Below are positions 35,327-53,951 of a stretch of 58,323 nucleotides of DNA, one piece after another. The translations under genes and the position numbers were made by a program. The DNA is from Cytophagales bacterium (lineage in GTDB: Bacteria > Bacteroidota > Bacteroidia > Cytophagales > Cyclobacteriaceae), in NCBI GenBank assembly GCA_020402945.1, contig JADBYQ010000090.1, positions 1 to 58,323 on the forward strand, given 5' to 3'. The notes below the pieces were generated by a model that was given only the letters and a program-made list of their open reading frames with translations, had not been told where the DNA came from and searched no databases. Numbering within the stretch: the first letter of the stretch is position 1; each line of letters starts with the position of its first letter.

Positions 35327-35484
35327 CCTGAAGCTTTTGGCTGCAAGCCGCAGGCCACATGCTACACGCTGCTAGTGCAAATTAAGTAATGCGAATGAAG
35401 TATTAGCTCGTTTATTGAAAACCTGAAAACAAATTGTAACTGATTATAGCCTGCGGCTTGAAGCATTAAGCTTGTGGCCACTAA
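35326..35484. repeat. Inverted repeat pair A1 (mraZ / S23 spacer)
   Basis: Left arm CAAGCCGCAGGC (in 35333-35358) pairs perfectly with GCCTGCGGCTTG in the right arm (35448-35473), with weaker flanking pairing (AGCTT..). The about 90-base loop contains no gene. The right arm ends just before the S23 start. Confidence 0.7.
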
Positions 35485-35864: not shown

Positions 35865-35900
35865 CAGCATGTGGCTTGTGGCCTGCAGCGTGTGGCCTAA
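35865..35900 (+). repeat. Family-A repeat arm (S23 / rsmH spacer)
   Basis: AGCATGTGGCTTGTGGCC followed by TGCAGCGTGTGGCC. Its complement shares GCAGGCCACA with the left arm at 35351, so it could close a larger hairpin around the S23 gene. Confidence 0.6.
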
Positions 35901-35912
35901 ATCAAAGCAATA

Positions 35913-40923: not shown

Positions 40924-42146
40924 TGCTGTACTATTTATTTGACTATATCGAAAAAAACTTTGATTTCCCGGGAGCCGGGTTGTTTCAATACATTTCGTTC
41001 CGAGCAGGAATGGCCGCTGTTCTTTCCTTATTGATTACGATCACATTCGGAAAAAAATTGATCAACTTCTTGCGTAAAAAGCAAGTGGGCGAAGACATTC
41101 GTGACTTAGGATTAGAAGGTCAATTGCAGAAAAAGGGCACACCTACGATGGGAGGTATTATTATCATCGCTGCGATCTTGATTCCAACGTTGCTAATGGC
41201 AAAGCTCGACAACGTGTATATCATTTTGTTGGTAGCCACCACCATTTGGCTCGGGCTAATCGGATTTTTAGATGACTACATAAAAGTATTTAAAAAAAAT
41301 AAAGAAGGATTGGCTGGTCGATTTAAAATTGTCGGTCAGGTTTCCATTGGTTTGATTGTTGGGCTTACACTCTTTTTCAATGACAATGTCGTTATCCGTG
41401 AGAAGTCAGCTCGATCAGTCGCTAGTGTTGAAATAGCTGCAATTCCCGCTGACGTAAAATCAGAGTATGATGTAAAATCCACCAAGACAACGGTACCCTT
41501 TTTGAAAGACAATGAGTTTGATTATAGCAGCTTGATATCCTGGTGGAATGCTGATTATACATGGATAGTATACACACTCTTTGTCATATTCATCATCACG
41601 GCAGTTTCAAATGGAGCGAATATTACAGATGGCATTGATGGACTTGCAGCTGGAACTTCTGCGATTATCGGACTCACGCTCGCCATATTTGCTTACCTGT
41701 CAGGTCGTGTTGACTTTAGTACGTACCTGAATATTATGTACATCCCTAACTTGGGAGAGCTGGTAATTTTCTGTACTGCTTTTGTGGGTGCGTGCCTTGG
41801 ATTTTTATGGTACAACTCATTCCCTGCACAAGTATTTATGGGAGACACCGGAAGTTTATCGATGGGAGGAATCATTGCGGTTTTAGCTCTAGCTGTAAGA
41901 AAGGAATTGATGATCCCGCTTTTGTGTGGGATCTTCTTAGTGGAGTTGGTTTCGGTAATGATGCAGGTGACCTACTTTAAATACACCAAAAAGAAATATG
42001 GTGAAGGCAGAAGAATATTACTGATGTCTCCCCTCCACCATCATTATCAGAAAAAGCAAATTCATGAATCTAAGATTGTAACGCGATTTTGGATTGTGGG
42101 AATACTATTGGCTATTGTTAGTCTGGCAACGTTAAAGTTAAGATGA
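40923..42146 (+). CDS. mraY: Phospho-MurNAc-pentapeptide translocase
   Basis: 407 residues, about 10 membrane helices. Family motifs: [33 protein letters not shown] with the catalytic Asp pair, [17 protein letters not shown], and [12 protein letters not shown]. It transfers phospho-MurNAc-pentapeptide to undecaprenyl phosphate (lipid I). A periplasmic loop (about 160-210, with acidic residues) is longer than in E. coli, as seen in other Bacteroidota. The stop overlaps the murD ATG (ATGA). Confidence 0.95.
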
Positions 42147-43528
42147 GCAAAAGAGTAGTCATATTAGGATCAGGCGAAAGCGGAACAGGCGCAGCTATTT
42201 TAGCGAAAGCGAAGGGCTATGAGGTTTTTGTTTCTGATCAGGGAACTATCAAAGATCAATATAAGAATGAGTTGACCAAAAATGGTATTTCATTTGAAGA
42301 GGGACAACATACATTGGAAAAAATTACCAACGCATCATTAATAATAAAAAGCCCGGGGATTCCCGATAAAGCAGAGGTTATTAAAAAGGTGAAAGCTGCA
42401 GGGATTGAAATCATTGATGAGATTGAATTTGCATTTCGCTATTTGAAGGGAAAAGTAATTGCTATTACCGGCACGAATGGAAAGACTACAACCACCTTAT
42501 TAACGTATCACCTATTGAAGTCGGCTGGAGTCAACGTTGCGTTGGCAGGTAATGTGGGAGAGAGTCTTGCTCGGAAAGTAGCAACGGCTCATCATGATTG
42601 GTACGTGATTGAGATTAGTAGTTTTCAACTGGACGGAACGAAAACATTTCGACCAGATATTGGAATTCTGTTAAATATTACTCCTGATCATTTGGATCGC
42701 TATGAGTACCAAATGCAGAATTATATCAATTCAAAGTTTCGGTTAGTTCAATCCATGAGCTCTTCCGGATCTTTTATTTATTACTCAGACGATGCGGTAA
42801 TAGAAAAAGAGATGGCTAGTAAATCAATTTCACCTGTTAAAGTCAGGGTGTCATTAAAATCAAATCCGAGTGTACCGGTTTATTTTAATGGAAATGAAAT
42901 GACATTTTCTTTGAATGGAAAATCTTTCTCTTTTACACAGGCGCAAACCACGTTGAAGGGGCCGCATAATTTGATCAATACGATGTCTGCCGTTTCTGCC
43001 GCTGTGTTAGCTGGGGTTTCGATAGAGAATATTGGAATGGCTTTAAAGACATTTGTTAATGCGCCACATCGACTCGAATCAGTTGCAACGATCAATGGTG
43101 TTGAGTTTGTGAATGATTCCAAAGCTACCAATGTTGATTCAGTGGTTTATGGACTAGGAAGTTACAAGGGGCCTCTCGTTTGGATTGCCGGAGGCATTGA
43201 CAAGGGAAATGATTACACGTTAATTGAGAATCAGGTAAAAGAAAAAGTGCGTGTGTTGATTTGTTTGGGTAAGGACAACGAGAAACTAAAAAAGGCTTTT
43301 AGTGGCAAGGTGAAAGAAATTTACGAAACGCAAAACGTAAAGGAATTGGCACAACTAGCACTACGCGTTTCAGAGACAGGAGACGTTGTTTTGTTATCAC
43401 CGGCTTGTGCAAGTTTTGACCTTTTTAAGAATTATGAAGATCGTGGCGCACAATTTAGGAATGCAGTACTTGAGTTGAAAAATAGTATTGAAGATAAAAG
43501 AAGTCAGAATTTAGAAGTCAGAATATAG
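42143..43528 (+). CDS. murD: UDP-MurNAc-Ala:D-Glu ligase
   Basis: 461 residues. Rossmann start [23 protein letters not shown] loop GTNGKTT at 110-116, [30 protein letters not shown] and [19 protein letters not shown]. Adds D-glutamate to UDP-MurNAc-L-Ala. Odd: the last about 11 codons (after NSIEDK) are supplied by the family-B repeat arm, so the C-terminal tail RSQNLEVRI is repeat-derived. Confidence 0.95.
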
Positions 43529-43529
43529 A
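43499..43529 (+). repeat. Family-B repeat, left arm (B1)
   Basis: Two tandem AGAAGTCAGAAT-type units overlapping the murD stop. AGAATTTAGAAGTCAGAAT (43506-43524) is a perfect 19-bp inverted match of 43906-43924. Confidence 0.85.
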
Positions 43530-43892
43530 ATGGCCAAAAGAGAACCCGCAAAGTCGTTTAGAGATTTGATCGTGTGGCAAAAAGCACATCAGCTTGCTCT
43601 TGGCGTATATAAAATGACAAAGTCGTTTCCAAAGGAAGAGTTGTATGGTTCAACGTCACAAGTGAAAAGATCATCAGTGTCTGTGGCAGCAAACATTGCT
43701 GAGGGCTTTAAGAAAAAAGGGAAGGCTGATAAACTTAGATTCTTTAACATCGCTCAAGGTTCTTTGTCTGAAACAGAATACTATCTGATTTTAGCTAACG
43801 ACTTAGAATATTTTAATACTGACTTATTGATTGAAGACGTGATTGAAGTAGGTAGGCTTTTAGAATCATATATGAGTGCGTTTGAAAACTAA
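43530..43892 (+). CDS. Four-helix-bundle protein, S23/IVS family, copy 2
   Basis: 120 residues. FRDLIVWQKAHQLALGVYKM, GSTSQVKRSSVSVAANIAEG, ADKLRFFNIAQGSLSETEYY and ESYM near the end match the family closely. It differs enough from copy 1 at 35499 (about one third identical by eye) that it is not a recent duplicate. The start codon is 1 bp after the murD stop, and the whole gene lies in the loop of a 19-bp perfect inverted repeat (B1 arms). Likely a selfish or regulatory cassette; function unknown. Confidence 0.9.
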   Translation: MAKREPAKSFRDLIVWQKAHQLALGVYKMTKSFPKEELYGSTSQVKRSSVSVAANIAEGFKKKGKADKLRFFNIAQGSLSETEYYLILANDLEYFNTDLLIEDVIEVGRLLESYMSAFEN

Positions 43893-43924
43893 TTCTAACT
43901 TCTGAATTCTGACTTCTAAATTCT
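43891..43924 (-). repeat. Family-B repeat, right arm (B1)
   Basis: ATTCTGACTTCTAAATTCT (43906-43924), the perfect complement of the left arm, plus further ATTCTAACTTCTGA units. It ends 9 bp before ftsW. Confidence 0.85.
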
Positions 43925-43933
43925 TTTGATAAA

Positions 43934-45121
43934 ATGAAATTGAGTAAAATAAAAGAATGGGCTGATAAAAACCTGCAAGGCGACAGGGTTATTTGGGCTG
44001 TTGTTTTTGCTCTATCGCTTATTAGCATTTTGGTTGTGTACAGTTCTATTGGAACGTTGGCATACAAAAGAACGGCCAGTACCGAGTCGTATTTACTGAA
44101 GCACACGTTCATGGTGTTCTTAGGTTTAGGCGCTATGTGGGTTGCTCATAAAATAGACTATCGCTATTATTCTAAAATATCCCGATTGGCGTTGTGGGTA
44201 AGTGTTCCCCTATTAATCTATACGTTCACCAATGGAACCACCATCAACGAAGCAGCTAGGTGGATTACATTGCCAATCATTAACACTTCATTTCAGCCAT
44301 CTGATTTTGCGAGTTTGGCATTGATTATCAACCTCGCTAGTATGCTTTCCAAAAAGCAACAAAACATTGATGATGTAAAAGAAGCCCTCATCCCAATGCT
44401 AATATGGTGTGGCGTGATATGCGGGTTGATTGCTCTCACCAATCTATCGACCGCCATGTTGCTTTTCGCAACGTGTATGTTAGTAATGTTTATCGGTCGT
44501 GTACCGGTTAAGTATTTGGCGATGCTGGTTTTAGTTGGCTTACTCGCTGGCGCTGTTGCATTGAAGTTCGGAACACGTGGCGCTACAGCGCTAAGTCGTA
44601 TTACTGCTTTTGTCAATGGTACTGAACTTCCGTTTCAGGCAAAACACGGGCGCATAGCAGTGGCCACGGGTGGTGTCTTTGGGAAGGGGCCGGGTAATAG
44701 TGACCAACGGAATATTTTGCCGCATCCTTATTCTGATTTTGTCTATGCAATTGTGATTGAAGAATATGGAATGATTGGAGGAGTGATCGTTCTTGTATTG
44801 TACTTGGTTTTACTCCATCGAGGAATGAAAGCTGCTTATAATAGTGAGCGTGCGTTCGGAGGCCTGTTGTCGGCAGGTCTAAGTTTTGATTTGGTCTGTC
44901 AGGCTATGGTTAACATGGGAGTAGTAGTTGGGTTGGGCCCGATTACAGGTCAGCCACTTCCTTTAATCAGTATGGGCGGCACCGCTATGGTTTTCACCGG
45001 TTTATCTGTTGGAATCATTTTGAGCGTGAGCCGTGGGGAACAAGAAGAAAACTGGGGACACACAGAGGTGAGTGAAGAAGTAATGAAAGAAAACAAAGAT
45101 CTGGAGGCAAAAGCAGCGTAG
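43934..45121 (+). CDS. ftsW: Lipid II polymerase FtsW
   Basis: 395 residues, SEDS family, about 10 membrane helices. AARWITLPIINTSFQPSDFA, KHGRIAVATGGVFGKGPGNS, LPHPYSDFVYAIVIEEYGMI and GLGPITGQPLPLISMGG are the standard SEDS motifs, with the catalytic Asp in the large loop YSDF. The partner FtsI is encoded in the same cluster. The cytoplasmic C-terminus is acidic (EEVMKENKDLE). Confidence 0.95.
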   Translation: MKLSKIKEWADKNLQGDRVIWAVVFALSLISILVVYSSIGTLAYKRTASTESYLLKHTFMVFLGLGAMWVAHKIDYRYYSKISRLALWVSVPLLIYTFTNGTTINEAARWITLPIINTSFQPSDFASLALIINLASMLSKKQQNIDDVKEALIPMLIWCGVICGLIALTNLSTAMLLFATCMLVMFIGRVPVKYLAMLVLVGLLAGAVALKFGTRGATALSRITAFVNGTELPFQAKHGRIAVATGGVFGKGPGNSDQRNILPHPYSDFVYAIVIEEYGMIGGVIVLVLYLVLLHRGMKAAYNSERAFGGLLSAGLSFDLVCQAMVNMGVVVGLGPITGQPLPLISMGGTAMVFTGLSVGIILSVSRGEQEENWGHTEVSEEVMKENKDLEAKAA

Positions 45122-45122
45122 T

Positions 45123-45208
45123 AATTTGAAGATGGAACAATTTGAAAATTTGAAAATTAAAGTACGGATAAACGGCCTGCGGCTTGCAGCATGTAGCGTG
45201 CAGCCTTT
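45123..45208. repeat. Spacer repeats between ftsW and murG
   Basis: An AT-rich part (CAATTTGAAAATTTGAAAAT, 45138-45157) is followed by a family-A arm GGCTTGCAGCATGTAGCG with TGCAGCC (45181-45204). The A arm has no clear partner arm here. Confidence 0.6.
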
Positions 45209-45246
45209 TATAATGGGAGAAGAAATATTTATTAAGTGATAGCTAG

Positions 45247-46383
45247 TTGACAACAAGAAAACCATATCGCATCATTATTAGTGGAGGAGGAACAGGTGGT
45301 CATATTTTCCCTGCGTTGGCCATTGCTAATGAGTTGAAAAGACGATATGCTGACTCAGAAATTTTATTTGTGGGCGCTAAAGGAAAGATGGAGATAACCA
45401 AAGTGCCTGAGGCTGGATACAAAATAATTGGATTGTGGATTAGTGGGCTGCAACGAAAAATTGCACTTTCTAACCTCTCGTTTCCTTTTAAATTAATTGC
45501 GAGCTATTTGAAAGCCGGAAACATTATTAAAAGTTTTAATCCGGATGTAGTGATTGGTACTGGCGGCTACGCGAGCGGCCCTATCATGCTGGCGGCTTCG
45601 AAAGCACGAGTAACTTCTGTGATTCAAGAGCAAAACTCTTATGCGGGTTTAACCAATAAACAATTGGCACACAAAGCAGCTAAGATTTGTGTGGCGTATG
45701 AAGGCATGGAGAAATATTTTCCGGCTTCGAAAATAGTATTCACTGGAAATCCAGTGAGAAAGGACATTATCGATTTGGATTCAAAACGTGAAAGGGCGTT
45801 GAATCATTTTGCCTTTACTAGCTCCGATCGTACGCTCCTCATTTTAGGTGGAAGCCTTGGGGCACGAACCATTAATGAAAGCATTTTGGCTGGAATAGAC
45901 AAATTGATTGATTCTCAGATTCAAGTCATTTGGCAGACTGGTAAGCTATACTATGAAGGCATTAAAGCACAAGTCGAAAACAAAGATCTTAGAAGGATTC
46001 GAGTGGTTGACTTCCTGAAACAAATGGATTTGGCTTATGCAGCTTCTGACGTTGTCATTTCGCGCGCTGGTGCGTTGGCGATATCGGAGTTGTGTATTGC
46101 CAAAAAGCCCTGCCTACTGGTTCCTTCACCCAATGTTGCGGAAGATCATCAGACAAAAAACGCGATGGCGTTGGCTAATGAAGGCGCTGCATTGATGGTA
46201 AAAGATTCAGAAGCAAAAGAGTCTCTCGTTAGCGAGGTGTTAAAATTGATTTATGATGAACAGTTGAGTGAGAAGCTGAGCGTCAATATTGGCAAGTGGG
46301 CAAAGCCACATGCTACTGAAGAGATTGTAAATGAAATTGAAAAACTGATTGGAGTAAAGCATGAAGTTAGAGCAATACGATAG
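45247..46383 (+). CDS. murG: UDP-GlcNAc:lipid I transferase
   Basis: 378 residues starting with TTG at 45247, because no ATG or GTG precedes the family start RIIISGGGTGGHIFPALAIA. Later motifs VIGTGGYASGPIMLAASKAR, IQEQNSYAGLTNK, LGGSLGARTINE and ISRAGALAISELC fit MurG. It completes lipid II on the inner face of the membrane. A TTG start would lower translation, which may suit an enzyme needed in small amounts. It overlaps murC by 23 bp. Confidence 0.94.
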   Translation: MTTRKPYRIIISGGGTGGHIFPALAIANELKRRYADSEILFVGAKGKMEITKVPEAGYKIIGLWISGLQRKIALSNLSFPFKLIASYLKAGNIIKSFNPDVVIGTGGYASGPIMLAASKARVTSVIQEQNSYAGLTNKQLAHKAAKICVAYEGMEKYFPASKIVFTGNPVRKDIIDLDSKRERALNHFAFTSSDRTLLILGGSLGARTINESILAGIDKLIDSQIQVIWQTGKLYYEGIKAQVENKDLRRIRVVDFLKQMDLAYAASDVVISRAGALAISELCIAKKPCLLVPSPNVAEDHQTKNAMALANEGAALMVKDSEAKESLVSEVLKLIYDEQLSEKLSVNIGKWAKPHATEEIVNEIEKLIGVKHEVRAIR

Positions 46384-47746
46384 CGTTTACTTCCTGGGCA
46401 TAGGGGGCATTGGCATGAGTGCCATTGCTCGTTGGTTCAAGCATAAAGGCTTGCGAGTGGCTGGCTATGATCGTACACCTACTCCACTTACGCACGAACT
46501 ATTGGAAGAAGGAATGGAAATTCATTTTGAAGATAAGATTGAATTTATTCCAGGATATATTAGTAAGGAAAAAACGTTGGTGGTTTTTACACCTGCTATC
46601 CCAAAGAACCATGTAGAACATGCTTATTTAAAAGATCTGGGATTCACGATTCTAAAACGCTCAGAAGTGTTGGGTCTGTTAACTAAGAGTTATAAAACCA
46701 TTGCTGTTGCAGGAACACATGGAAAAACGACTACCTCTTCGTTGATCGCGCATATTCTAAAATCGGCTGGCGTAAATATGGTTGGATTTCTGGGAGGCAT
46801 TACCACCAACTACGATTCAAATTTGGTCATGGAGGGCGAGGTGAATGATAAGACCATCGTAGTAGTTGAAGCGGATGAATTCGACCGTTCTTTTCTGCGC
46901 TTATTTCCAGAGATAGCCGTGGTTACATCTGCGGATGCCGATCACTTGGATATTTACGGAGATCATTCAAGCATGTTAAAGTCATTTCGGGATTTCATCA
47001 AACAGATCAATGCAAACGGAAGTCTGATTATACATGAATCCATCGAGTCACTAACAGAAGGAATTTCAGTTTCGAAAGAAACATATGGCATGAGCCGGGG
47101 ACATTTTTTTGCCGGCAATATTACCCCGACTGGTCGGGGCGGATTTTTTGAATTTGATCTTCACGGCTTTGGAAAGAAGGTTGAGAAAATTCAGCTCGGT
47201 GTCCCTGGTTTTCATAACATGGAAAATGCAATCGCTGCTACGCTCGTTGCATTAAAATTGGGAATTAGCGAAACACACATTCGCCAAGCGCTTCAGTCTT
47301 TTAAAGGTGTGAAGCGGAGATTTGAGTTTATCATCAAACGCGATGATCTGGTTTACATTGATGATTATGCACATCACCCAACGGAGATTGAAGCATTTCT
47401 CACTTCACTTAAGTCGATGTACGCAGGAAAAAAATTGACAGTAATTTTTCAGCCACATCTTTTTACTCGCACACGAGATTTTGCAGAAGGATTTTCAAAG
47501 AGTCTGAGTATTGCCGATGAAGTTTTGCTGATGGACATCTATCCGGCTCGCGAGGAACCTATACCGGGTGTCACTTCTGATATGCTGTTCAAAAATATCT
47601 CCAGCTCGGTGAAGATTCGCTGTAACAAGGGGGATGTGTTACAAAAGCTGGAAGATTTGGAGGTAGAAGTATTAGCAACAGTAGGAGCGGGTGACATCGA
47701 TACGTTTGTGAAACCGATCAAGGATATGTTGTTGAGACGGAGTTAA
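46361..47746 (+). CDS. murC: UDP-MurNAc:L-alanine ligase
   Basis: 461 residues. YFLGIGGIGMSAIARWF, ATP loop GTHGKTT at 118-124, VVEADEFDRSFL, DDYAHHPTEIEAFL and TRTRDFAEGF are typical. First amino-acid-adding ligase of the pathway. Residues 255-261 (TPTGRGG) are encoded by a CCCCGAC/GTCGGGG palindrome, which seems to have been inserted in frame into a variable loop. The gene overlaps murG. Confidence 0.95.
   Translation: MKLEQYDSVYFLGIGGIGMSAIARWFKHKGLRVAGYDRTPTPLTHELLEEGMEIHFEDKIEFIPGYISKEKTLVVFTPAIPKNHVEHAYLKDLGFTILKRSEVLGLLTKSYKTIAVAGTHGKTTTSSLIAHILKSAGVNMVGFLGGITTNYDSNLVMEGEVNDKTIVVVEADEFDRSFLRLFPEIAVVTSADADHLDIYGDHSSMLKSFRDFIKQINANGSLIIHESIESLTEGISVSKETYGMSRGHFFAGNITPTGRGGFFEFDLHGFGKKVEKIQLGVPGFHNMENAIAATLVALKLGISETHIRQALQSFKGVKRRFEFIIKRDDLVYIDDYAHHPTEIEAFLTSLKSMYAGKKLTVIFQPHLFTRTRDFAEGFSKSLSIADEVLLMDIYPAREEPIPGVTSDMLFKNISSSVKIRCNKGDVLQKLEDLEVEVLATVGAGDIDTFVKPIKDMLLRRS
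47124..47139. repeat. CCCCGAC/GTCGGGG palindrome inside murC
   Basis: Perfect 7-bp stem with a 2-base loop, same family as at 13751. The reading frame is kept. Confidence 0.7.
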
Positions 47747-47747
47747 G

Positions 47748-47917
47748 GGCATCAAGCTACATGCCGCAAGCCACATGCAGCTTGATGTTTAGTAAGGAGT
47801 TGAGTATTTGATGAAAAAATTGAATTGTAAATTGTAATAAAGAGAGACCGATAAAAACCATAAAATAGTAAGTTTTGATAAGCAGCTTGCAGCATGAAGC
47901 ATGAGGCTTGAAGCCAA
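47748..47917. repeat. Family-A repeat pair A4 (murC / ftsQ spacer)
   Basis: The left part (47750-47787) is itself a hairpin, CATCAAGCT..AGCTTGATG, enclosing ACATGCCGCAAGCCACATGC. The right part (47882-47916) is an inverted relative, GCAGCTTGCAGCATGAAGC then ATGAGGCTTGAAGCC. About 95 bases between them hold no gene. Confidence 0.65.
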
Positions 47918-47937
47918 GTAAACACTGTGAAAGAACA

Positions 47938-48699
47938 ATGAAGCCAAAGTTCACCATACGAAAAGAGATAAAAATTGCACTAGTGCTGCTCGCGCTTTCC
48001 TTTTTGATCGCCTTTAGCGAACGAAAACGCGGGGGGTCGGTGTGCAAAGATATTGTGATTGAATTGGACAACTTGAATGAAAATCATTTTTTAGATGAGG
48101 CCGATGTATTGCAACTGGTGGAGGGAAGTGGCGAGCCTATTAAGGGTGTTGGTATTAGTCGAATTAAACTGAAGGAGATAGAAAAGAAACTGAAGTACGA
48201 CAAACATATTTTAGACGCTGAGCTTTTTGGTGATCTCAAAGGAAACTTAATCGTCAATGTTGAATTGAGAAGACCGATTGCTCGCATCGTGCAAAATGAT
48301 GCGCCTGACGCCTACATAGCAGAGGATGGTGTCGTTATGCCCGTTTCGGAAAAATATACTTCTCGAGTGGTATTGATAAGTGGAGCCGTTAAACAATTGC
48401 TGGAAAGCGAAGACTTAAATAAATCTGAAGAGGGAAAACAACTTCTTGAAATGATTGAATATATCAACAAAGAAAAATTCTGGAAAGCGCAAGTGGCACA
48501 GTTAGATATTGCAAAGAACGGGAAGATTTCAATTTACCCACAGGTAACAGGGCAGTTGGTTGAATTCGGAAAGCCAGAAAACATCGAAGTGAAATTCAAA
48601 AAGCTCATGGTATTCTACAAGGAAATTTTACCGACTCGTGGCTGGACGAGGTATGAACGTGTGAATTTGGAGTATGAGGGTCAAGTGATTGCTGAATGA
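47938..48699 (+). CDS. ftsQ: Cell division protein FtsQ
   Basis: 253 residues from the ATG at 47938; an in-frame ATG at 47908 lies in the repeat arm and is unlikely. One membrane helix (about 10-28), then a POTRA-like domain (about 40-105, DIVIELDNLNENHFLDEADV, KEIEKKLKYDKHILDAEL) and the beta domain. It bridges cytoplasmic and periplasmic divisome parts with FtsL. Low sequence conservation is normal; its position between murC and ftsA supports the call. Confidence 0.9.
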   Translation: MKPKFTIRKEIKIALVLLALSFLIAFSERKRGGSVCKDIVIELDNLNENHFLDEADVLQLVEGSGEPIKGVGISRIKLKEIEKKLKYDKHILDAELFGDLKGNLIVNVELRRPIARIVQNDAPDAYIAEDGVVMPVSEKYTSRVVLISGAVKQLLESEDLNKSEEGKQLLEMIEYINKEKFWKAQVAQLDIAKNGKISIYPQVTGQLVEFGKPENIEVKFKKLMVFYKEILPTRGWTRYERVNLEYEGQVIAE

Positions 48700-48701
48700 A
48701 A

Positions 48702-48844
48702 GGAATATAGAAGTCAGAATTTAGAATATAGAATTTGGAATAGATAATGAGTAAATATAAAATGTTAAAGGCAAGTTATAACGAGTTTGAACGAGTTCTT
48801 AAAAGCGTGATTCTGACTTCTAACTTCTATATTCTAAATTCTTT
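48702..48844. repeat. Family-B inverted repeat pair B2 (ftsQ / ftsA spacer)
   Basis: AGAATTTAGAATATAGAA (48716-48733) is a perfect 18-bp inverted match of 48825-48842, with further AGAAGTCAGAA units on each side. The about 90-base loop has no gene. It is the same repeat that brackets the S23 gene at 43530. Confidence 0.85.
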
Positions 48845-48864
48845 AAATCAGAGAGAAAATATAA

Positions 48865-48878
48865 ACAACCACTAAACA
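48865..48878 (+). promoter_or_regulatory. Shared leader motif before ftsA
   Basis: ACAACCACTAAACA, identical to 50316-50329 before ftsZ, 11 bp before the start codon. It may aid translation initiation. Confidence 0.4.
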
Positions 48879-48889
48879 TACAGAACATC

Positions 48890-50206
48890 ATGGAACACGA
48901 AAAAATAGTAGTAGGGCTTGACATCGGTACAACAAAAATTGTTGCGATTGTAGGTCGCCAGAATGAGTTCGGCAAGCTCGAAGTATTAGGCATGGGCAAA
49001 GCTGAGTCAGAAGGCGTAATAAAGGGAATTGTAACCAACATTGATAAAACTGTTTTTGCCATTGAGAAGGCTGTTAAAGAAGCCAGCGATATGTCGGGAA
49101 TAGATATTGGTGTGGTGAATGTAGGTATTGCGGGACAACACATTCGCAGTTCCATACACCATGGCAGTATCACCCGCAGTTCGAAAGAAGACGAGGTAAG
49201 CATCGAAGATGTGAATCGCCTGACGGAAGACATGTATCGAATTGTCATCCCACCGGGCAGTGAGATCATTCATGTGATGCCACAAGACTATACGGTTGAT
49301 TATGAGGAGGGCATCAAAGATCCGGTCGGCATGAGTGGGGTTAAGCTAGAAGCAGACTTCCATATCATCACGGCACAGACCAGTGCGATAAACAATATAA
49401 ATAAGTGTGTACGCAGAGCAGGTCTTGAAATACAAGACTTGATTTTGGAACCATTGGCATCAAGTATCGCAGTGCTCAGCGAAGATGAAAAAGAAGCAGG
49501 TGTTTGTTTGATTGACATTGGTGGAGGCACTACAGACATCGCTATTTTCCACGATAGTATTATCAGGCATACGGCTGTGATTCCATTCGGAGGAAATATT
49601 TTGACTACTGACATTCAGCATGGTCTGATGGTAATGGCAAAGCAAGCAGAACAATTGAAGACTCGATTTGGCAAGGCGATTGCCGAAGAGGCAAGCCCCA
49701 ACGAAATTGTTTCTATTCCCGGAATTCGAAATCGTACGGCCAAAGAAATTTCGGTAAAGAACCTTTCCAACATCATTCAAGCCAGAATGGAGGAGGTGAT
49801 CGAAATGGCGCATGGAGAAATCATCAGCTCAGGTTACGAGAAGAGATTAGCTGGAGGTATTGTAATCACAGGTGGCGGTTCTCAGTTGAACTCGTTGAAG
49901 CAGTTGGTAGAGTACATGACAGGCATGGATGCACGCATTGGCTATCCTAATGAACATCTTGGCAAAAGCAAACTGGAAGTGGTGAAGAGCCCGATGTATG
50001 CAACTGCGGTTGGCCTTGTGCTATCTGGATTCCGTTCGTTGGATGAACGTGAAGAACGGTACAAGGAAGCGAAAGAAAATCAGAACCAAAAGACGGTGAA
50101 AGTGAAAAAGGAAAAGCAAAATCTAGCATCTGATTTCTTTTCGAACATACTTAACAAAACGAAAGGATTGTTAATTGATGATCTGAGTGACAAGAATGAA
50201 TACTAA
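48890..50206 (+). CDS. ftsA: Cell division protein FtsA
   Basis: 438 residues, actin-like. Phosphate-1 loop VVGLDIGTTKIVAIVGRQ, the 1C domain with VVNVGIAGQHIRS, phosphate-2 CLIDIGGGTTDIAIF and adenosine motif IVITGGGSQLNSLKQL. The C-terminus (about 395-438) is lysine-rich and ends FFSNILNKTKGLLID, a likely amphipathic membrane-targeting helix. It tethers FtsZ to the membrane. Confidence 0.96.
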   Translation: MEHEKIVVGLDIGTTKIVAIVGRQNEFGKLEVLGMGKAESEGVIKGIVTNIDKTVFAIEKAVKEASDMSGIDIGVVNVGIAGQHIRSSIHHGSITRSSKEDEVSIEDVNRLTEDMYRIVIPPGSEIIHVMPQDYTVDYEEGIKDPVGMSGVKLEADFHIITAQTSAINNINKCVRRAGLEIQDLILEPLASSIAVLSEDEKEAGVCLIDIGGGTTDIAIFHDSIIRHTAVIPFGGNILTTDIQHGLMVMAKQAEQLKTRFGKAIAEEASPNEIVSIPGIRNRTAKEISVKNLSNIIQARMEEVIEMAHGEIISSGYEKRLAGGIVITGGGSQLNSLKQLVEYMTGMDARIGYPNEHLGKSKLEVVKSPMYATAVGLVLSGFRSLDEREERYKEAKENQNQKTVKVKKEKQNLASDFFSNILNKTKGLLIDDLSDKNEY

Positions 50207-50210
50207 AACT

Positions 50211-50294
50211 CTGGGCTACATGCCGCATGCTTCAAGCCACAAACTGTTCGGAACTACCGCGCTGCTTGCAGCATGTGGCCTGCAGCTTGAGGCC
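50211..50294. repeat. Family-A repeat pair A5 (ftsA / ftsZ spacer)
   Basis: Left arm GGCTACATGCCGCATGCTTC then AAGCCACA (50213-50241); right arm GCTTGCAGCATGTGGCCTGC then AGCTTGAGGCC (50262-50294), inverted and related. Short loop of about 20 bases. Confidence 0.65.
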
Positions 50295-50315
50295 AATAAT
50301 AAAAACTAAAAAAAT

Positions 50316-50329
50316 ACAACCACTAAACA
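50316..50329 (+). promoter_or_regulatory. Shared leader motif before ftsZ
   Basis: ACAACCACTAAACA, identical to the motif before ftsA, 8 bp before the ftsZ start codon. Confidence 0.4.
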
Positions 50330-50337
50330 CCATAGTC

Positions 50338-51993
50338 ATGTTTGAACCAGTAACAGGATACAAATTTGATCTCCCCAAACATCACAAGTCAATCATTAAG
50401 GTGATTGGTGTGGGTGGCGGAGGTAGCAACGCAGTCAATCATATGTTTCGACAAGGAATTAAAGATGTCGAATTTGTGGTGGCAAACACCGATTTGCAAG
50501 CGCTGAATAGTAGCCCAGTTCCCTACAAATTGCAGCTCGGTGTCAACCTAACCGAGGGCCTTGGATGTGGAGCTAATCCAGAGGTAGGGCGCGCAGCCGC
50601 CTTAGAAAGCAAAGACCAAATCCGCGAAATGCTGGCAGGAACGAAAATGGTTTTTGTGACGGCTGGAATGGGTGGTGGCACTGGAACCGGAGCCGCACCT
50701 GTCATCGCAAAAATTGCAAAGGACATGGATATCCTGACAGTTGGTATCGTCACCGTTCCTTTCTCTTTTGAGGGAAAGAAAAAATTAGGCCAGGCAGAGT
50801 TGGGTATTGAATCGTTCCGCAGTAGCTGCGATACGGTACTCGTTATATTAAACGACAAGCTTCGTGAGATCTATGGCAATTTGTCCATTGGGCAAGCATT
50901 TGGTGAAGCAGACAATGTTCTAACCACAGCTGCGAAAGGAATTGCAGAGATAATTACGCTGGCAGGGTATGTGAATGTGGACTTTCAAGATGTTCGCACA
51001 GTAATGTTGAACGCAGGTGCTGCAGTGATGGGAACCGCGGAAACAAGAGGCGATACCAGGGCAATCAAAGCAGCACAGCAGGCACTGGCTTCTCCGTTGT
51101 TGGATAGCCATAACATCATGGGTTCAAAGAAAATTCTGCTTTCCATTATTTCAGGAGAGCAAGCAGAGTTGCAAATGGACGAGCTCACCACAATAACGGA
51201 ATACATTCAGCAACAGACTGGTGATGAAGCGGAAGTTATTTTTGGTCACGGTGTCGACAGTGCGTTGGGTGATCGAATTCGGGTGACAGTTATTGCCACT
51301 GGCTTTGATACCGTTCAAAAAACAGTCAAGAAGGAAGATAAAAAAGTACATGACCTCGACAAATCTCAAATCCCTCTTTTTGGAGCGGTCGATAATTCTG
51401 TCAATCAACGAGGAGCTGACTTGGAACTAAAATTCAAGGATAACAGTGGCTCACAAAACGCGGAAACGATTAATACAACGCCTCCCGCTGAAGTTCCTGT
51501 GGAAATTCCAAACGTTCAAAAGCCGTTTGACAGACCTATCCTGAAGACAGAAGAAAAGGTAGAGAAAGAATTCCCGAAGCAGGAAGAACGTGCCTATACA
51601 TTTACCCTTTTTGATAAGACCGAAGCAACCGATTCGCAACAGGAAGACGAGGGTGAAGAAAGCTTGTTTGCCGAAGATGATGAGTTTCAGATTGGAAGAG
51701 AGATTTCTGCAGATCAGGTGATCAATAATGATGGCTTGATGGAGGTGCGTAAAACAAGAGCACGACTAGAGCAACAAGCCAAAGAGCGAAGAGAGAAGTT
51801 GAAATCCAATCGCAAGCAAGAAATGACAAAAGAAGAATTCAACGAAAAGTGGACATTGCCAGCTTATTTACGCAGAGGCGTTAAGATGGATAATGTGCCC
51901 CATTCTTCTGAACAGTTTATTTCACGATATAATCTAAATGATGATAATAATTTGTTGGGCAATAATAAGTTTTTGCATGACAATGTGGATTAG
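50338..51993 (+). CDS. ftsZ: Cell division protein FtsZ
   Basis: 551 residues from the ATG at 50338; the longer open frame runs back through the repeat. Tubulin signature GMGGGTGTGAAPVIAKIA, KVIGVGGGGSNAVNHMFRQG, T7 loop region NVDFQDVRTVMLNAGAAVMG. The GTPase core ends about residue 335; a long acidic linker (about 200 residues with many E/K) and a C-terminal segment (about 505-551) follow, longer than in E. coli and typical of Bacteroidota. It forms the Z ring. Confidence 0.97.
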   Translation: MFEPVTGYKFDLPKHHKSIIKVIGVGGGGSNAVNHMFRQGIKDVEFVVANTDLQALNSSPVPYKLQLGVNLTEGLGCGANPEVGRAAALESKDQIREMLAGTKMVFVTAGMGGGTGTGAAPVIAKIAKDMDILTVGIVTVPFSFEGKKKLGQAELGIESFRSSCDTVLVILNDKLREIYGNLSIGQAFGEADNVLTTAAKGIAEIITLAGYVNVDFQDVRTVMLNAGAAVMGTAETRGDTRAIKAAQQALASPLLDSHNIMGSKKILLSIISGEQAELQMDELTTITEYIQQQTGDEAEVIFGHGVDSALGDRIRVTVIATGFDTVQKTVKKEDKKVHDLDKSQIPLFGAVDNSVNQRGADLELKFKDNSGSQNAETINTTPPAEVPVEIPNVQKPFDRPILKTEEKVEKEFPKQEERAYTFTLFDKTEATDSQQEDEGEESLFAEDDEFQIGREISADQVINNDGLMEVRKTRARLEQQAKERREKLKSNRKQEMTKEEFNEKWTLPAYLRRGVKMDNVPHSSEQFISRYNLNDDNNLLGNNKFLHDNVD

Positions 51994-52085
51994 AACAGAA
52001 GTTAGAATGGAGAAGTCAGAATATAGAATTGGCTATTTTGTAGCGAATGCTTCTGACTTCTATATCCTGAATTCTAACGTCTAAC
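51994..52085. repeat. Family-B repeat pair B3 (after ftsZ)
   Basis: Left arm GAAGTTAGAATGGAGAAGTC then AGAATATAGAATTGG; right arm TTCTGACTTCTATATCCTGA then ATTCTAACG. AGAAGTCAGAA pairs with TTCTGACTTCT. Loop about 20 bases. Confidence 0.75.
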
Positions 52086-52246
52086 TAAAGGCATGGCATT
52101 TCCGGTATGACTGGTTTTACTCCATTCGTAGTGGTTGTTGGTGGTAAATATTTTTTGCCGATACCGGAGTGCCTTCTTAAGACCAGACTTTTAGAATAGC
52201 TGTCGTAGATTTTTTGCAGCGTTCTGGTCTGTTGATTTTTTACAGT
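52086..52246. other. Spacer after ftsZ
   Basis: About 160 bp with no gene seen. It contains two direct relatives, GTAGTGGTTGTTGGTGG and GTCGTAGATTTTTTGCAGCG, but no coding potential. Confidence 0.5.
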
Positions 52247-52282
52247 GAAAAGCCCCCCGCCCACTGGCGAGGGGCTTTTTTG
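52247..52282 (+). terminator. Terminator closing the dcw cluster
   Basis: AAAAGCCCC..GGGGCTTTTTTG, 9-bp stem with a GC-rich loop and a T-run. The A-run on the other side means it could also act on the minus strand. Confidence 0.88.
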
Positions 52283-52289
52283 TTTAGTT

Positions 52290-52317
52290 TTTGCGAGAGC
52301 ATTAATTCTTATCTTTA
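52290..52317 (+). promoter_or_regulatory. Possible promoter of the hydrolase-dipeptidase gene
   Basis: TTTG at 52290 and TATCTTTA at 52310 resemble the Bacteroidota -33/-7 boxes, with a 16-base spacer that is slightly short. It lies just after the terminator and 14 bp before the ATG at 52332. Confidence 0.4.
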
Positions 52318-52331
52318 TCAAAATATTTTTT

Positions 52332-53951
52332 ATGAACAAAAGAGTCGTCTACTTCACATTCCCAATTATACTATTGGCCGTCATTTACCTTCTCGGCCCC
52401 GCACCATCAAAACCTAAGTGGGATTTAGCGATGCCAACCGTTCCGCAAGAACCCATGGCTTTAGAGAATTATGTGGCGGATCAAGAGAGCAAACACAAAC
52501 TTAAACCTGACAATGAAGCGCGTATCGTTTGGGCGGATAGCTCAAGGAAAAAGACCGAGTATAGTGTTATTTATCTTCATGGCTTTTCAGCAAGTCAAGA
52601 AGAGGGTGATCCGGTGCATGTCAATTTCGCAAAAAAGTTTAATTGCAATCTTTACCTCGCTCGACTGGCAGACCATGGTGTTGACACCACTGAACAACTT
52701 TTATTGTTTACACCTGACCGGTGGTGGAAAAGCAGCAAAGAGGCACTAGCTATCGGCAAGGCGCTTGGTGATAAAGTTATCATTATGAGCACATCTACGG
52801 GGGGAACAATGGCACTGCTATTGGCTGCTGAGTATCCACAGGATGTACATGCGCTGATCAATTTGTCACCCAATATCCAAATCTTTCATCCGTTGGCCTC
52901 TTTATCCAACAATCCTTGGGGTTTACAACTGGCGCGGAAAGTGATAGGCGGCAATTATAATGTATCGAAACCAATTTACGGTGTGGATATGAAACTGCAA
53001 AATCAGTATTGGAATGACAAATACCGCCTTGAGGCCGTTGGTCAGATGCAGGAAATGTTGGAAGATAAAATGACGGAGCAAACTTTTAAAAGAATAAAGG
53101 CACCTTCATTATCGCTGTACTATTACAAAAATGAGGCAGAACAAGATTCAACGGTGCGGGTGAGTGCTATCCTTAAGATGAATGAGCTATTGGGTACTCC
53201 TGATTCAATGAAAGTCGCGCTGGCCATTCCTTACGCAGGCACGCATGTTATAGGATCGTACATACGCTCAAAAGACGTTTTCTCTGTGGAGCGTGCTGCT
53301 GAAAATTTTGCAGTCGAAAAATTGGGGATGAAGATTAATTATGGGTTGAATCCAACAAAACTAGATGCTTACAAAAATAGTTTGAAGGCCAATCCCGATA
53401 ACGAGCTGATTGACTTAGAGAAATTCATACCGAATATTGTGCTGGATGTTCGCTATGCCACCACCAACAATTTTACCAAAGAAAAAATCTACAATTTGCC
53501 AAAGGCTTATTCGCGCAAGCCTGTCGCCATAGCTTTAAAAAATGCACAAGATGAGTTTAAGAAACTGGGCTACGGCATAAAAGTATACGATGGGTATCGA
53601 CCGTATTCTGCAACTGTAAAATTTTATGAAGTGATGAAAGGGGATACGATGTATGTAGCCAGTCCCTACAAAGGATCCAAGCACAATCGGGGTTGCGCTC
53701 TTGACATCACTTTAGTTGATTTAAAAACGAGAGAAGAATTAAAAATGCCAACCGAATGGGATACTGCTTCGAAGGAAAGCTGGGCAGACGCACCTGTAAG
53801 TGATCCTATGATTGCCAAAAACAGAGAGACCCTAATTTCTGTCATGGAAAAAAGTGGATTTAAAGTTTATTCAGCCGAGTGGTGGCACTTTGATTTTGTC
53901 GGTTGGCAGATGTATGATGTGATGGATATTGAGTTTGGAGAGTTACCCTAA
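52332..53951 (+). CDS. Alpha/beta-hydrolase fused to VanX-type D-Ala-D-Ala dipeptidase
   Basis: 539 residues from the ATG at 52332; the open frame upstream crosses the terminator and is not used. A membrane/signal helix (about 5-23) is followed by an alpha/beta-hydrolase domain (about 75-340): oxyanion region VIYLHGFSASQEEGDP, nucleophile Ser155 in STSTGG (a non-standard GxSxG with Ser at the first position), late His in AGTHVIGSYI. Residues about 355-535 are a DdpX/VanX-like dipeptidase: LDVRYATTNNF, DGYRPYSA, zinc ligands His451 and Asp458 in SKHNRGCALDI, and Glu516/His519 in AEWWHF. Both active sites look complete. It probably acts in the periplasm on cell-wall peptides and an ester or acyl substrate. 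The fusion is unusual. Confidence 0.85.
   Translation: MNKRVVYFTFPIILLAVIYLLGPAPSKPKWDLAMPTVPQEPMALENYVADQESKHKLKPDNEARIVWADSSRKKTEYSVIYLHGFSASQEEGDPVHVNFAKKFNCNLYLARLADHGVDTTEQLLLFTPDRWWKSSKEALAIGKALGDKVIIMSTSTGGTMALLLAAEYPQDVHALINLSPNIQIFHPLASLSNNPWGLQLARKVIGGNYNVSKPIYGVDMKLQNQYWNDKYRLEAVGQMQEMLEDKMTEQTFKRIKAPSLSLYYYKNEAEQDSTVRVSAILKMNELLGTPDSMKVALAIPYAGTHVIGSYIRSKDVFSVERAAENFAVEKLGMKINYGLNPTKLDAYKNSLKANPDNELIDLEKFIPNIVLDVRYATTNNFTKEKIYNLPKAYSRKPVAIALKNAQDEFKKLGYGIKVYDGYRPYSATVKFYEVMKGDTMYVASPYKGSKHNRGCALDITLVDLKTREELKMPTEWDTASKESWADAPVSDPMIAKNRETLISVMEKSGFKVYSAEWWHFDFVGWQMYDVMDIEFGELP

Follow-up and report, generated by a model that had tools for sequence, protein, structure and literature searches.

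Between murD and ftsW in the window, by which we mean the whole 58,323-nt stretch of Cytophagales bacterium DNA that was analyzed, lies an S23-family gene enclosed by two inverted arrays of 7-nt repeats. We read this feature, with a probability of roughly 0.7, as a mobile S23 module of about 430 nt, similar to the intervening sequences (IVSs) of 23S rRNA, that was inserted as one unit, carries heptads of its own type read by the S23 protein, spreads with host enzymes, and has arms that pair in the mRNA. The anatomy of the module, its orientation, its recurrence across phyla, its presence or absence with empty sites, and its mostly co-directional placement in operons were observed directly.

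In the mechanism we propose, a left tandem array, the S23 gene, and an inverted array of the same kind would have entered the murD-ftsW junction together and then been kept or lost among related species. The S23 protein is homologous to the pentameric 2GSC protein and to Avd. It would recognize, in DNA or RNA form, the heptads that match its type, and together with host enzymes would spread both the module and gene-less arrays to new gene junctions. Once transcribed, the arms would pair into a helix that could be cut by RNase III or another double-strand RNase, as in the 23S IVS. The findings suggest that tiny inserting elements akin to those found inside ribosomal RNA form a class that is still little known.

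The module between murD and ftsW

The host gene murD occupies positions 42143-43528 and ftsW follows at 43934-45121, both on the forward strand. Between them, on the same strand, an ORF of 120 amino acids (43530-43892) begins 1 nt past the murD stop. It matched PF05635 (23S_rRNA_IVP / S23) at 123.8 bits against a cut-off of 33.8, in agreement with the original prediction of an S23-family gene 1 bp after murD, and belongs to a subfamily associated with heptads of the class AGRANWY. A 19-bp perfect inverted repeat had also been predicted around this gene. The arm, AGAATTTAGAAGTCAGAAT, was indeed found at 43506-43524 (+) with a perfect match again at 43906-43924 (-), and when up to three mismatches were allowed it had nine matches in the window versus 0.06 expected. 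It is, however, only a single register of two inverted arrays of five heptads each, with the pattern (AGAANNN)5.

The left array (43499-43533, +) reads AGAAGTC, AGAATTT, AGAAGTC, AGAATAT, and AGAAT over 43499-43531, and contains the final murD codons and stop. The C-terminal MurD residues RSQNLEVRI are encoded by the arm, as had been proposed, and the S23 module is thus able to alter the end of a host protein. The right array (43890-43924, -, or 43892-43924 when delimited like the left sequence) abuts the S23 stop codon. With an S23 ORF between inverted terminal repeats and tandem heptamers ahead of it, the module has the anatomy of an IVS, here located outside any 23S rRNA gene. A scan of the collected loci for six 23S strings, run without a positive control, found none, and an Rfam search of 43300-52700 returned one match only, below threshold.

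AlphaFold predicts a four-helix bundle (pLDDT 95) for the S23 protein, and the model resembles 2GSC (TM 0.89), Avd (4DWL, TM 0.76), and 2RLD. A solved relative has five chains, and X. campestris S23p is described as a homopentamer in the available sections of PMC4990558. At E 0.001, the Pfam matches were PF05635 and a bAvd match below its cut-off. No nuclease, transposase, or polymerase is encoded by the module, which we count against its being mobile; since it encodes no enzyme, a host enzyme would have to move it. Dependence on a genomic reverse transcriptase (RT) was rejected because RT was not associated with S23, which likewise counts against the mobile reading. The two RT matches of the genome are on contigs C94 and C117, and the window's contig, C127, carries none. 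Among genomes of the phylum, an RT match was present in 10/29 with the subfamily gene versus 75/169 others, and in 71/157 with any S23 gene versus 14/41 without; 24 of the 44 genomes with at least eight S23 genes had no RT match.

Heptad arrays around other S23 genes

The S23 loci closest to the window gene, the best 80 of 535 confirmed loci, came from Bacteroidota, Cyanobacteria, Desulfobacterota, Verrucomicrobia, Planctomycetes, and others, and 79 of these 80 were scorable for heptads. With a threshold of 16 of 18 positions, AGRANWY heptads were found upstream (+) or downstream (-) in 72 of the 79, versus 7 of 280 control ORFs from the same loci, and on both sides in 40/79 versus 0/280. The opposite orientations were seen in 3 and 3 of the 79 S23 loci and in 8 and 10 of the 280 controls. 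A threshold of 15 positions gave 77/79 versus 22/280, and one of 17 positions gave 63/79 versus 7/280. These best 80 loci include near relatives, and dereplication at 85% identity left 62, in which at least three units were present on the left in 53 and on the right in 39; 40 left and 33 right arrays had three to five units.

A second sample, chosen by Pfam alone, comprised 80 Bacteroidota loci with 82 scored hits. Subfamily profile scores in this sample fell on either side of a gap from 134 to 177 bits, and AGRANWY heptads accompanied all six members above the gap versus 1/76 of the other S23 hits. The subfamily gene was present in 29/198 genomes of the phylum. At least 20 array hits were found in 11 of these 29 versus 2 of the 169 without it (Fisher p ~6e-9), and at least one hit in 24/29 versus 28/169, a less informative count because the arrays adjoining the gene themselves add hits. 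The reversed control of the array-count pattern gave 18 hits in the genome studied here. Two results were counted against a mobile module, namely that the gene is single-copy in 25 of the 29 genomes and that the array pattern is unmatched in 5 of them. Viral contigs yielded just one S23 relative, at 41% identity.

We rejected the idea that the arm marks every S23 gene in this genome, as it accompanies one of the seven and the other six each have a different array. We describe these flanks by a generic test, in which the upstream flank is aligned with the reverse complement of the downstream flank and a score of at least 12 is a pass, using S23 genes chosen without regard to repeats. Other S23 genes of the phylum passed in 61/78 cases versus 5% of mismatched pairs, and those from 15 genomes of other phyla in 41/50 versus 3%. 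The latter sample had 68 usable loci of 70, 18 of them subfamily members, of which 10 passed. All seven S23 genes of this genome passed, six of them being among the 78, with repeats that differ by eye. Control ORFs from other loci passed in 18 of 557 cases. The AGRANWY subfamily itself passed in 43/72, and its own mismatched pairs in 32% because the repeats are common to them. Flank matches in direct orientation (13/78 and 13/50) were also above mismatched pairs, which counts against the mobile reading.

A strict tandem-period test on 82 other S23 genes found 12 upstream and 15 downstream flanks with period 7, 4 and 3 with period 8, and one with period 12; periods 5, 6, and 9-11 were found in none of these flanks. 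Background windows showed period 7 in 19 of 577 and period 8 in 2. Arrays of the six S23 genes in one Nostoc genome were mutually unlike (scores 7.0-10.8). Protein likeness was correlated with array likeness between families of the phylum (r = 0.218, p ~0.0005) and across phyla (r = 0.181, p ~0.001). The latter correlation is due to the AGRANWY subfamily alone, and matching of protein to repeat across phyla was not seen beyond this subfamily (r = -0.016 without it, with only 19 pairs at a protein similarity of at least 0.5), which counts against the mobile reading. Inverted heptad arrays are the usual setting of S23 genes, and their sequence varies by type. In the open-licence PMC literature, including the available portions of PMC4679880, PMC4990558, PMC4692102, PMC8700078, and PMC10053308, we found no published account that connects S23 genes in general to heptads at their flanks.

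The window holds a second S23 gene of another type (PF05635; 35499-35858, +, ends read from the sequence), which scored 83 bits with the subfamily profile and is followed, by our own reading, by an apparent rsmH. Its left array (35335-35371, +) consists of GCTGCAAGCCGCAGGCC-like repeats and its right array is at 35865-35901 (-); a piece of the same array type, a perfect match to the 17-nt motif, lies in the ftsW-murG gap at 45174-45190 (-). Another short tandem repeat, AATTTGAAAATTTGAAAATT, is found in that gap at 45130-45160. The motif TAGAAGTCAGAAT has 15 copies in the 4.38-Mb genome and its reversed control none, the broader pattern AGAANNNAGAANNNAGAA has 86 hits versus 32 for its control, and the repeat of a third S23 gene of the genome, GAGATTTGAGAT (one mismatch), has 73 copies versus 15. 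One S23 gene of this genome, L022 (G000:C136:12609-12869), is flanked on the same strand by tRNA-Gly and tRNA-Leu; its surroundings, like those of the rRNA IVS, are stable RNA.

Heptad inverted pairs with no S23 gene between them are present in the ftsQ-ftsA gap (48702-48743, +, and 48808-48842, -) and just after ftsZ (51997-52031, +, and 52048-52082, -). At the latter position, the relatives L288 and L292 have inverted pairs of quite different units, one of which by eye resembles the GTTGNTG arrays found at a different S23 gene (L189). In several relatives the adjacent stretch at 52080-52170 is conserved as ATG...TGGTGGTAA, after which come a GC-rich hairpin and a T run. We read it as a possible leader peptide plus attenuator; the one Rfam match near it did not reach threshold.

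Within the heptad units the core AG[AG]A is constant and positions 5-7 are variable. Agreement of unit order from arm to arm in 46 loci was 2.42 versus 2.36 for shuffled order, with two loci at p 0.05, and the idea that a hairpin is kept by compensatory unit order was rejected. The constant core and unmatched unit order favor protein recognition of the units over pairing alone. RNA folding of 43470-43960 paired the arms in both the minimum-energy and the centroid structure, in line with the potential hairpin first suggested. It might be that the arms chiefly form a transcript helix cut by RNase III, which would split the polycistronic mRNA much as the IVS does in 23S rRNA. Consistent with this, the Coxiella 23S rRNA IVS is cut by RNase III in vitro (available text of PMC4990558), and S23 genes were co-directional with both neighbors in 68 of 92 loci, counted on mechanically called ORFs and not dereplicated. 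The folding z-score, however, was only -1.84, the heptad order between the arms is not compensatory, and a good inverted match was absent in 17 of the 78 S23 genes of the phylum. We consider such processing unlikely to be the chief role of the arms.

Occupied and empty junctions

A search of 40 genomes of the genus provided 30 murD loci. S23 was present between murD and ftsW in eight of these, with arrays or degenerate arrays, and absent from 22. The comparison with relatives lacking the gene, which had been suggested earlier, showed no array in 21 of the 22, the exception being locus L070, which keeps a heptad-like remnant. In the 21 S23-less junctions that could be measured, the murD stop was 14-48 nt from the conserved N-terminal motif of FtsW. 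A subfamily-profile search of 62 genus genomes gave 15 genes in 13 genomes. Eleven genes, in 11 of the 62 genomes, were at murD-ftsW with arrays, and four were at a second junction, which by its flanking peptides we read as thiolase-truA; there the units are looser, some being 8 nt. Both junctions were occupied in two genomes.

On a MurD tree of 33 rows, S23 presence requires at least four changes. The S23 proteins of the murD site form one group, which encloses two Cyclobacteriaceae sequences from elsewhere, L097, whose gene is at murD-ftsW, and L087, whose gene is one gap on, at ftsW-murG. Because of this tree, this grouping, and these positions, we conclude that the module is old at murD-ftsW and was probably lost several times, with neighboring gaps occupied in different lineages. 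At this site S23 looks inherited with losses and not recently mobile, which we count against a mobile module.

The claim that S23 and its arms constitute an insertion was borne out by this presence and absence within the genus and by near-identical empty sites on plasmids. In T. variabilis ATCC 29413 plasmid C, near a TrbI/VirB10 gene, and in Scytonema NIES-4073, a module stands between two genes. On plasmids of Microchaete and Aulosira, whose matched parts are 97.9 and 97.7% identical, the same genes are 13 nt apart with nothing between them. These empty sites, at ~98% identity, are without any array and show that gene and arrays entered as one unit. The sequence GTAAT, which contains the stop codon, is found on both sides of the plasmid module and once in the empty site; target duplications of at least 5 nt were found in 7/39 loci versus 4.6 expected and are not general, a point against the mobile reading. 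At the same site, a Nostoc C052 plasmid has an S23 gene remnant and Brasilonema an array pair without S23.

A module also lies between cas10 and cmr3 in Picosynechococcus PCC 7003, and PCC 7002 is empty there. Of three related operons in Nostoc ATCC 53789, one carries S23 in its first gap, another carries it in the second, with GGGAAAA arrays, and the third has it in neither. A second, broken GGGAAAA-type S23 copy elsewhere in the same strain has similarity extending from array to array. Copies on a Calothrix NIES-22 plasmid were rejected as evidence of insertion because their context is common to the copies. Among ten plasmid loci that were read, upstream AGRANWY heptads passed the same threshold in six, which was likewise counted against the mobile reading. 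L315 passes downstream but its upstream array runs the opposite way, the unit of L312 is a related one, L314 has direct arrays of another unit, and L313 has none. CRISPR-Cas operons of cyanobacterial plasmids with S23 (L312, L314, L361) are arranged cas10-S23-cmr3 once and cas6-S23-cas4 twice. Essential-gene operons, CRISPR modules, and conjugation modules thus accept the S23 module at stop-start junctions.

We also weighed whether the heptad arrays could be older, unrelated simple repeats into which S23 genes merely land. S23-less arrays are common in this genome, and heptad traces persist at S23 sites without the gene in L070 and L327. The seven S23 genes of the genome, however, have visibly different arrays, one S23 subfamily has the same heptads in several phyla, and the ~98% identical empty sites have no array. 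We judge it very unlikely that S23 is a passenger of this kind.

Another explanation is regulatory. An S23 oligomer would bind the heptads in RNA, controlling its own operon as well as a regulon that the dispersed arrays would mark, and mobility would be incidental. TRAP, a ring protein that binds repeated triplets in RNA, provides a model. Recognition of single units fits the constant core, the variable positions, and the unmatched unit order, and three to five units are present in many arrays of a family in which a solved relative has five chains. The arrays, however, form inverted pairs around the gene, all but one of the 22 S23-less genus junctions are devoid of them, and gene and arrays insert together into operons as unrelated as cas10-cmr3 and conjugation genes. 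A purely regulatory role accordingly seems rather unlikely to us, and we prefer the inserting module.

Relation to known repeats and elements

The Coxiella 23S rRNA IVS, as described in the available sections of PMC4990558, is 428 nt long and has an S23 ORF between inverted repeats on the sense strand of the host transcript, tandem GACAGAT heptamers upstream of this ORF, and a 28-bp terminal stem. The murD-ftsW module has the same S23 ORF, enclosing inverted repeats, and upstream tandem heptamers, but lies in a protein-coding operon, and the IVS is likened to it by anatomy, not by S23 protein sequence. The IVS analogy of the original prediction holds for anatomy and is widened here to S23 genes generally. 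GACAGAT is one mismatch from the AGRANWY class, a nearness that is weak alone because 398 of 2344 heptamer classes come as near.

The RAYT/REP system pairs a tyrosine transposase with dispersed palindromic repeats, many of them gene-less. The S23 case is alike in having inverted repeats around a gene that is mostly single-copy, as well as dispersed gene-less repeats. The S23 protein, however, forms a four-helix bundle and matched no transposase family, HUH/Y1 included, and its repeats are tandem 7-8-mers rather than palindromes. The fold is shared with Avd of diversity-generating retroelements (4DWL), but no RT lies on the window's contig, let alone beside the gene, and the bAvd score is below the Pfam cut-off.

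Closest to the arrays themselves are the dispersed heptamers GGGAATC and TAACTGA, which are likewise tandem and mostly intergenic. The available text of PMC4692102 gives the Xanthomonas GGGAATC heptads the grammar GGGANTN, reports 70 and 75 inverted pairs, and finds them generally not associated with mobile elements. In that of PMC4679880, TAACTGA heptads are described from Beggiatoaceae, cyanobacteria, and Bacteroidetes, with the suggestion that a repeat-binding protein could be a mobile element. The terms S23 and four helix are absent from the main texts of both papers. TAACTGA is two mismatches from the AGRANWY class and would therefore have to belong to another S23 type. Cyanobacterial STRRs are heptanucleotide repeats and may belong with the S23-type repeats.

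With the flanking tandem repeat as its partner, the S23 family acquires a testable role, and the heptamer repeats, left without an origin in the available text of PMC4692102 and PMC4679880, acquire a possible one. In the broadest form of this proposal, which we regard as evenly balanced between right and wrong, the whole S23/IVP family would be minimal mobile elements of about 430 nt with one non-enzymatic oligomeric protein, each type reading its own 7-8-nt address repeat in inverted tandem arrays. The 23S rRNA IVS would then be one special case, and the orphan heptamers of Xanthomonas, cyanobacteria, Beggiatoaceae, and Bacteroidota would be gene-less offspring of such elements.
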